Assembly (NCBI GenBank): GCA_017398585.1
Contig: JAFQFS010000126.1
Location: 1 to 56,464 of the forward strand
Direction of reading: 5' to 3'
DNA length: 56,464 nt
Source of the DNA: Clostridia bacterium
GTDB taxonomy: Bacteria > Bacillota > Clostridia > Oscillospirales > CAG-272
A program made the position numbers and the translations under genes. This document shows positions 8,426 to 9,765 of the stretch, one piece after another (position 1 is the first letter of the stretch; the number at the start of each line of letters is the position of its first letter). The notes under the pieces are model-generated. The model saw nothing but the letters and a program-made list of their open reading frames with translations, made no database searches and was not told where the DNA came from.

Positions 8426-9235
8426 ATGCCGTCATACAGCAGATTGCTTGTCGCCTCTGCCAAGGGCGGTGTAGGCAAAAGCACGACCGCACTCGGTCTT
8501 GCCGCAGCGTTTGCACGAAAAAACAAACGCGTGCTTCTTGCGGATCTCGACATCACCAGCCGCAGCCTTGATATGCTGACGGGTGCGTCCGACCGGACCG
8601 TGCGCGACATCGCCGACCTCCTCACGGATTCCGCAGCGGACATCCGCCGGATGTGCACACAGCCTTTTGAGGAATACCCGAATCTTTCTTTCATTGCCGC
8701 CTGTTCGCCGGATCGTCTGGCCGGACTTGCCGAAAAGTACGGAGTGCGGGAAAACACACTGATCCGCGAAGCGGTTATCCGCCTTCTCAGTTACGGGGAA
8801 TACGACATGCTCATCTGTGACACCGGCGGGGGATGTGAAATTCCCGCAGCCATTGCAGATCTGTTCGGATTCACCGTCATCACCGCAGAACAGAGCATGA
8901 CGTCGGTGCGTGCCGCCGAGTACGCCGCGTCGCGGCTGGAACGTGCGGGAGCGCTGCAGATGCGGCTTGTGATCTGCGGATTTGACCTGACGTCCGTGAA
9001 ACGGGAGAAGCGTGCGGGTGTGATCGAAATGATTGACCGCTGCGCGCTGCCCTGTCTCGGTGTGGTACCGTACGACCGGAAGCTGCAGAAGGCGCAGGAC
9101 AACGGAGAGCTGCCGGACGAACGTTCGCTGTCGGCAATGGCATACGCCAACATTGCCGGACGGATCACCGGGGTAGAGACACCGCTGTTTCACGGGATGG
9201 GGGCATTATACCGCCGGCGTGCGCTGGCGCTGTAG
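8426..9235 (+). CDS. MinD/ParA-like deviant Walker-A ATPase
   Basis: 269 residues. The deviant Walker A motif is SAKGGVGKSTT (lysines 13 and 18), with LLADLDITSRSLDML as the switch I/Walker A' region and DMLICDTGGG as Walker B. This is the MinD/ParA/Mrp P-loop class that dimerises on ATP, often for positioning at the membrane or on DNA. It is orphan: no minC, minE or parB is adjacent and the next gene is the MgsA-like one, 92 bases downstream. The C-terminus (HGMGALYRRRALAL) is short, basic and hydrophobic, but not a clear MinD membrane-targeting helix. GGAGG precedes the ATG. Role unknown. Confidence 0.8.
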   Translation: MPSYSRLLVASAKGGVGKSTTALGLAAAFARKNKRVLLADLDITSRSLDMLTGASDRTVRDIADLLTDSAADIRRMCTQPFEEYPNLSFIAACSPDRLAGLAEKYGVRENTLIREAVIRLLSYGEYDMLICDTGGGCEIPAAIADLFGFTVITAEQSMTSVRAAEYAASRLERAGALQMRLVICGFDLTSVKREKRAGVIEMIDRCALPCLGVVPYDRKLQKAQDNGELPDERSLSAMAYANIAGRITGVETPLFHGMGALYRRRALAL

Positions 9236-9327
9236 GAAACACACAATCATGGCGGCATCTGTTTACATTCTATATATACTGTTAAAAATGAAGCAGACAC
9301 AACTCAAACGAAAGGAATGGAGGAAAT

Positions 9328-9765
9328 ATGGATATTGCACTTATCGCTGACGACACCAAAAAGGAACTTATGACACAGTTTTGCATTGCGTACTGCGGCA
9401 TTTTGTCAAAGCACAACATCTGCGCGACAAGTACAACCGGCAAGTACGTACAGGAAGCAACCGGGCTGGAGATCGAAAAACTGTTATCCGGCGAACACGG
9501 GGGCACACAGCAGATAACATCCCGCATTTCCTACAACGAGATCGACGTTCTGCTGTATTTCCGCAGCACCACACCGAACCTCGGGTACGATGAAAACGAA
9601 AACAATCTGCTTCGTATGTGCGACGTTCACAACGTCCCTGTCGCAACGAACATTGCCACTGCGGAAGTTCTGATCTGTGCGCTTGACCACGGTGATCTTG
9701 ACTGGCGTGAAATCGTCAATCCGCGCTCGGACTACAACCGCCGCAGACGCGGTATGTCGTATTGA
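9328..9765 (+). CDS. Methylglyoxal synthase homologue lacking catalytic residues
   Basis: 145 residues aligning without gaps to MgsA (offset 11 from E. coli numbering as I recall it). Fold landmarks remain: IALIADDTKKELM, ATSTTGKYVQEATG, GGTQQI, CDVHNVPVATNIATAEVLI. MgsA makes methylglyoxal from dihydroxyacetone phosphate. Here E. coli H19 is D8, catalytic D71 of GGDQQ is T60, D91-P92 is S80-T81, H98 is Y87 and D101 is N90; the phosphate-loop TGTTG is TSTTG. Every key residue is replaced while the scaffold is well kept, so this is probably a pseudoenzyme or binds another ligand. A GGAGG site lies before the ATG. It could share a transcript with the MinD-like gene. Confidence 0.85.
   Translation: MDIALIADDTKKELMTQFCIAYCGILSKHNICATSTTGKYVQEATGLEIEKLLSGEHGGTQQITSRISYNEIDVLLYFRSTTPNLGYDENENNLLRMCDVHNVPVATNIATAEVLICALDHGDLDWREIVNPRSDYNRRRRGMSY

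Follow-up and report, generated by a model that had tools for sequence, protein, structure and literature searches.

Loss of catalytic residues in an MgsA-like protein encoded beside a MinD-like ATPase in Clostridia: a candidate pseudoenzyme derived from the mre-min operon

The window analysed here is the whole stretch of 56,464 nucleotides (positions 1 to 56,464, forward strand) of contig JAFQFS010000126.1, from the Clostridia bacterium assembly GCA_017398585.1 (Oscillospirales; CAG-272). On its forward strand it carries a MinD-like gene followed by a gene for a homologue of methylglyoxal synthase (MgsA, MGS), with the following features:

8426..9235, + strand: gene of a MinD-like ATPase with a deviant Walker A motif, 269 aa
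9194..9232, + strand: codons of the basic C-terminal tail of the MinD-like gene, family pattern PLFxGM..L.(R/K)RR.L.L
9236..9327, + strand: intergenic gap between the MinD-like and the MgsA-like gene, 92 bp, with a GGAGG ribosome-binding site directly 5' of the ATG
9328..9765, + strand: gene of the MgsA-like candidate pseudoenzyme, 145 aa, recognised by MGS fold and sequence homology
9427..9441, + strand: codons of the former phosphate loop TSTTG, equivalent to TGTTG 45-49 of E. coli

A sequence-only reading of this DNA had described an MgsA homologue with its catalytic residues replaced, 92 bp downstream of a MinD-like gene, and this description was confirmed in the window. In E. coli numbering the replacements are H19D, D71T, D91S, P92T, H98Y and D101N, and thus include H19 (oxyanion), D71 (general base) and D91, H98 and D101, all with catalytic or substrate roles in the enzyme (PMC1877815, PMC7843640). 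K23, T45, T47, T48, S65 and G66 are retained, and the sole change in the phosphate-binding set K23/TGTTG/S65/G66 is G46>S. The protein scores 121.7 bits with the model NF003559, above its cut-off of 84, and 121.2 bits with TIGR00160, below the cut-off of 146.9. We take it to be oligomeric, and hexameric by homology. The neighbouring ATPase keeps K13GGVGK18ST, D40, D42 and D132, and at 101 (101.4) bits it lies below the MinD cut-off of TIGR01968 (212.9); the classical MinD amphipathic helix is absent from its C-terminus by sequence, and a short basic tail, GMGALYRRRALAL, is found instead.

In what follows, locus names begin with L and genome names with G, G000 being the window's own genome, which is 74% complete. 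Orthologues of the MgsA-like protein are present in 52 of 59 relatives and in 192 of 197 genomes of the order (completeness floor 90%, G000 counted too). Within the genus, most genomes carry a protein 90-94% identical to that of the window, one a protein at 84% and another one at 100%. Asp stands in place of H19 at each of the 22 genus loci read (L001-L022), where D71, D91, H98 and D101 are replaced as well. TIGR00160 matches 22 of the 25 genus genomes and none passes the cut-off; the three genomes with no match are 66-80% complete, and a sub-cut-off match was obtained in each of the five genus genomes with completeness of 90% or more and contamination of 5% or less. In G024, a 12.7-bit chance match is the only one besides the sub-cut-off match.

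Judged by these replacements, the window protein very probably makes no methylglyoxal. That it is still a weak methylglyoxal synthase is a highly improbable reading: it would fit the preserved fold and most phosphate contacts, the passing of the looser NCBI model NF003559 and the finding of no other MgsA copy in 48 of the 62 sampled genomes whose H19/D71/D91 triad is broken, but D71, H19, H98, D91 and D101 are all gone and every genus match falls short of TIGR00160. Since NF003559 accepts degenerate proteins as methylglyoxal synthase, annotation may credit gut Clostridia with methylglyoxal pathways too often. The named isolate Gemmiger formicilis MCC627 (L101, 4224-5402) holds a MinD-MgsA pair with D71>A, H98>S and D101>N, and this protein passes the cut-offs of both NF003559 and the strict TIGR00160 despite these losses; it marks a risk of mis-annotation even at the strict cut-off and makes a handy test protein.

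The losses extend far beyond the genus. For the order beyond the genus, we hand-picked 89 genomes so as to cover many genera, 24 of them from the window's family. D71 is missing from 61, H19 from 35, D91 from 14, D101 from 66 and H98 from 71 (nine of these being alignment gaps), while K23 is retained in 88, T45 in 88, T48 in 89 and G66 in 84. D71 is changed to Glu in 24 of the 89, and such proteins might, by their sequence, keep weak activity. Among 80 non-redundant D71-less sequences the mean frequency of the top residue is 0.38 at catalytic and substrate sites, 0.78 at phosphate sites and 0.71 elsewhere, against 0.83, 0.95 and 0.79, respectively, in 21 intact sequences. Within the phosphate set of the 80, T47 is retained in 35 and S65 in 29, and K23, T45, T48 and G66 in about 93% or more. 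The substitutions are thus shared by orthologues, as the sequence-only reading had proposed to check, and a lone mutant was rejected on the ground that the losses run through the genus and much of the order.

A tree built on 131 columns, with the active-site columns removed, four long or odd rows left out and the short rows L156 and L161 excluded from the alignment, is poorly resolved (57 of 110 forks open). D71 changes 16 times on the full tree, and 13, 5 or 4 times when forks below 80, 90 or 95 SH-aLRT are collapsed; the tree alone does not separate loss of D71 from gain. By the tree, MgsA chemistry would have been lost more than once. Intermediate stages exist: the min-linked protein of G058 (L030/L145) has H19>S, D71>G and H98>F and keeps D91-P92 and D101, and is one of several that are useful for ordering the losses.

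The pair was then compared for selection within the genus. Over 25 genus loci the MGS-like gene has a median dN/dS of 0.027 and the MinD-like gene one of 0.27, ratios that are rough because dS is near saturation and the usable pairs are few (130 and 160 of 300, respectively); the MGS-like protein evolves about ten times more slowly than its neighbour. Sites that vary within the genus make up 6 of 14 in the pocket and 24 of 131 elsewhere (Fisher p 0.04), and since variation is enriched in the former pocket, it is the scaffold that selection holds. The argument of the sequence-only reading that an intact scaffold speaks against random decay is borne out by this strong purifying selection (dN/dS about 0.03). 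Its proposal of a recruited pseudoenzyme also gains support from the substitutions in 22 of 22 genus loci, from the 0 of 25 genomes over TIGR00160 and from the same selection: catalytic residues lost, fold kept and purifying selection across the clade, the marks of a pseudoenzyme, are all found here. Apart from the lost residues themselves nothing favours a decaying relic or a lone mutant, a reading to which we give next to no credence; the relic was rejected on the high identity at near-saturated dS, the low dN/dS and the orthologues in nearly all relatives and genomes of the order. The window protein is almost certainly under selection for something other than methylglyoxal synthesis, and as its catalytic residues are lost and the rest is nearly unchanged, this is probably a new, non-enzymatic job.

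The variable pocket sites are 36, 54, 60, 80, 87 and 90 in window numbering, which speaks against one conserved ligand, and in the genus comparison no conserved set of ligand contacts beyond K12, T34, T37, G55 and their neighbours is evident. The ligand-binding sensor suggested in the sequence-only reading is a possible role only: K23, T45, T48 and G66, which contact phosphate, persist in most of the order, but a conserved new ligand is not apparent. These data bear on another explanation, in which the old pocket of a re-tooled enzyme would catalyse a different reaction on a phosphorylated substrate with new residues such as D8, S80 and T81. In its favour, D8 is invariant across the genus, Asp occupies this position in D71-less sequences more often than any other residue (33 of 80), and K12, T34, T37 and G55 are kept; however, the six pocket sites vary even inside the genus, and in the 80 D71-less sequences no site carries a new residue, differing from the intact enzymes, at 80% or more, so that a conserved replacement catalytic set was rejected. 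We regard a re-tooled enzyme as improbable.

A canonical mgsA elsewhere in the genome, the possibility raised in the sequence-only reading, could in principle have accompanied the loss, and none over TIGR00160 was found in the 25 genus genomes. Second copies at a distance from the mre- or min-linked one were also read, 23 in all, none with a MinD-like P-loop ORF in the retrieved stretch. H19, D71, D91, H98 and D101 are all retained in 22 of them (L133-L137, L245-L247, L249, L251, L254-L265); the exception, L267 of G302, is of a C-terminally extended type and has D71>G, P92>A, H98>S and D101>N. Because the unlinked copy is canonical in 22 of 23, the min-linked copy of those genomes is probably kept for something besides making methylglyoxal. 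Where the H19/D71/D91 triad is broken, a further canonical copy occurs in 14 of 62 genomes, against 3 of 24 with an unbroken triad, which is no significant excess (p 0.38); this count omits G302, G326 (second copy unread) and G341 as unclear. The second matches of G218 and G341 are only fragments. The idea that a canonical copy elsewhere explains the loss was therefore not upheld, either in the genus or in the order.

One genus genome, G001, holds two MGS-like loci on contigs C102 and C113 (L019 and L146; also L048 and L049). Its second copy, L146, is again of the degenerate kind with its own MinD-like gene; L048 and L049 both adjoin a MinD-like gene and GlyA, as a duplication or a mixed bin would give.

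The genomic origin of the pair is seen in Clostridia outside the order. At L173 the gene order is mreC-mreD-mrdA-minC-minD-minE-rodA-mgsA, the active site being intact, and in L171 (G083) and L166 (G064) mreB-mreC-mreD-mrdA-minC-minD-minE is followed by a degenerate mgsA. Pfam identifies MreC, PBP, MinC, the MinD-type ATPase, MinE and MGS in L171, and MinC, the MinD-type ATPase, RodA and MGS in L173; MinE was found in all three genomes, and the remaining gene names were assigned by eye. G083, which is one contig and given as 100% complete, has the degenerate copy only, while G064 and G116 combine a degenerate min-linked copy with an unlinked copy over the TIGR00160 cut-off; both unlinked copies keep all five residues, that of G116 with P92>T. 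Because MgsA belongs to an mre-min operon in other Clostridia, the window's MinD-like gene is a remnant of a min operon, and the MinD-MgsA pair descends from the clostridial mre-minCDE-rodA-mgsA operon. The sequence-only reading had spoken of an orphan MinD-like ATPase paired with the MgsA-like gene: the pairing is indeed conserved, and the ATPase is better described as an operon remnant than as an orphan.

MinE was found in 0 of 59 relatives (35 of the 59 genomes are at least 90% complete; G000 is at 74%), and the same MinE model matches 56 of 118 genomes of the class, a sample with some members of the order in it. MinC_C over its cut-off was likewise found in 0 of the 59, with one weak match, in G040. 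Of 28 loci with D71 kept, 20 have PBP2 (mrdA) no more than 4.5 kb upstream, against only 15 of 57 with D71 lost (p 1e-4, not corrected for kinship), so that most degenerate pairs are no longer part of the mre operon; where PBP2 is absent, 31 of 42 D71-lost loci have a MinD-like gene with an intact P-loop next door.

How firmly the two genes stay together was counted in 171 partly redundant loci of the order. A MinD-like gene with an intact P-loop lies directly upstream in 131 of them, so a partner gene conserved beside the ATPase, the mark of ParA/MinD partner pairs, is found here, and orthologues keep the MinD-like neighbour in most loci, not in all. In nine further loci the MinD-like protein falls outside the P-loop pattern: the P-loop is lost in L083, L084, L085, L086, L096 and L225 and altered in L202, L189 differs in the first Lys only, and in L182 the motif is intact but preceded by a long N-terminal extension. 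No MinD is found within 1.5 kb in 27 loci (17 with D71 lost and 10 with D71 kept, seven of the latter being the Monoglobus-type L102-L108), and four loci lie at contig ends. The pairing is thus conserved and not obligate, an obligate MinD pair is weakened, and the MGS-like gene outlasts its MinD neighbour. Of the 168 loci where an intact-P-loop MinD precedes the MgsA-like gene, 159 have a gap of 4-176 bp between the two; the other nine, with minE in between, have one of 299-330 bp.

In the MinD-like proteins that have lost the P-loop (L083:4162-4977, L084:4183-4980, L086:3196-3996, L085:4261-4983, L096:4174-4956 and, for L225, ORF 2238-2978 of its reverse strand), the lysine or serine of the motif is gone, as in KGGVGVGF, so that both members of these pairs look like pseudoenzymes. 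L192 and L196 have a degenerate MGS-like gene, without minD, 175-178 bp downstream of a long ORF (678 and 718 aa) that by eye resembles an IspH/LytB-ribosomal S1 fusion.

The MinD end also differs between the two settings. Counted on an alignment, 21-23 residues follow the VP motif in nine MinE-linked loci (six genomes), with a readable amphipathic helix; in 131 loci of the order the count is 3-12 residues in 49, 14-19 in 72 and 23-36 in 10. Tails of 14-19 residues are mostly basic and are the usual form in the window's family, and those of 23-36 residues are long and polar. None of the 14 tails of at least 18 residues in the order resembles the classical helix by eye, and the hydrophobic-moment score of tails of this length is 0.37-0.66, a range that does not discriminate. 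The basic tails could be re-evolved membrane anchors, or a new tail that binds the membrane or a partner.

Taking into consideration the loss of the catalytic residues, the conserved fold and the conserved pairing, the explanation we put forward, tentatively and at somewhat less than even confidence, is that the window protein is a conserved non-catalytic, regulatory descendant of the operon MgsA, maybe binding a phosphate ligand, that acts as adaptor or regulator of the MinD-like ATPase. The ancestral MgsA lay inside a clostridial mreBCD-mrdA-minCDE-rodA-mgsA operon; in the order MinC, MinE and the classical membrane-targeting helix of MinD are missing, and MinD and MgsA mostly stayed together. 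MgsA then lost the general base D71 and other catalytic and substrate-recognition residues, and kept the fold, the conserved C-terminal segment GDLDWRE and the phosphate-cradle anchor (K23, T45, T48, G66). The product would be a small oligomeric regulator that contacts the MinD-like ATPase in place of MinC and MinE and that may bind, but not convert, phosphate or a phosphorylated metabolite. For its parts, the MinD-like ATPase may be the main partner, with a likelihood just short of even, and retained phosphate-ligand binding is conceivable and a little more doubtful.

Several observations count against this explanation. The persistence of the MGS-like gene without a nearby MinD, and the broken P-loop of the six MinD-like proteins named above, both tell against MinD as the partner; the roughly ten-fold slower evolution of the MGS-like protein is odd for two proteins that mainly bind each other; and a second canonical copy that is not significantly commoner with a broken triad, together with the degenerate L267, weighs against the explanation as a whole. 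In the main rival, the pseudoenzyme would be a metabolite- or phosphate-sensing regulator of another partner, a protein of cell-wall elongation or carbon flux, and the proximity of minD would be an operon leftover. Survival without MinD or beside a MinD-like protein with no P-loop, the phosphate cradle kept in most of the order and the difference in evolutionary rate all agree with it, as does the MGS-like gene of Monoglobus L102, which stands directly behind mreC-mreD-mrdA without minD (names by eye). A parallel is the reported binding and regulation of B. subtilis MgsA by Crh; according to PMC10714963, Crh regulates MgsA, and raised methylglyoxal levels reportedly influence division. However, on leaving the mre operon the gene usually leaves together with minD, as the 31 of 42 loci above attest, and we consider a MinD-independent regulator rather unlikely.

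If the MinD-like ATPase is indeed the partner, the adaptor explanation can be taken one step further. An MgsA captured in the mre-min operon and repeatedly stripped of catalysis would act on a soluble MinD-like ATPase as an oligomeric regulator gated by a metabolite, and so constitute a third class of MinD partner. It would replace MinC and MinE and couple upper glycolysis, through a phosphate ligand such as DHAP or through phosphate, to division or elongation. We offer this extended form as a speculation and think it unlikely; if true, it would span a large order of gut Clostridia, plus the loci beside minE in other Clostridia. Whichever partner applies, a metabolic enzyme inside the clostridial cell-shape and division operon very probably loses its chemistry while strongly selected. 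This makes it directly testable whether MgsA acts without catalysis in Min or elongation biology, and hints that catalytically intact MgsAs of min operons may also have a second job. What is described here adds a new branch, of probable pseudoenzymes, to a known family (MgsA) set in a known operon (mre-min). In a literature search that covered few subscription journals, we found no paper that links MgsA with MinD or describes MgsA pseudoenzymes, and none on a ParA/MinD-type ATPase with an MgsA-derived partner.

Compared with known systems, the window protein stands closest to MgsA itself (EC 4.2.3.3; B. subtilis 6f2c, E. coli 1b93, C. difficile cdMGS), from which it differs by lacking H19, D71, D91, P92, H98 and D101, by its score below the TIGR00160 cut-off and by a degenerate state that is conserved over the clade. 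The Crh-MgsA precedent for growth control in B. subtilis concerns an active enzyme, unlike the window protein. The MGS-like regulatory domain of carbamoyl-phosphate synthetase (CarB/CPS1) is part of a large enzyme and shares 11-19% identity, whereas the window protein is free-standing and far nearer to MgsA. With the ATPase-cargo pairs of the ParA/MinD family (McdA, FlhG, ParC and others) the locus shares an ATPase gene beside a conserved partner gene, an arrangement from which, according to PMC10241942, cargo has been deduced by gene neighbourhood. With MinCDE (TIGR01968), for which PMC4905992 gives background on the C. difficile system, it shares a MinD homologue with the same deviant Walker A motif and a min operon as genomic ancestor; it differs in that the relatives have neither MinE nor MinC over cut-off, in the sub-cut-off score of the MinD-like protein, and in its C-terminus, where the classical membrane-targeting helix is missing by sequence and most of the MinD-like family has a short basic tail.
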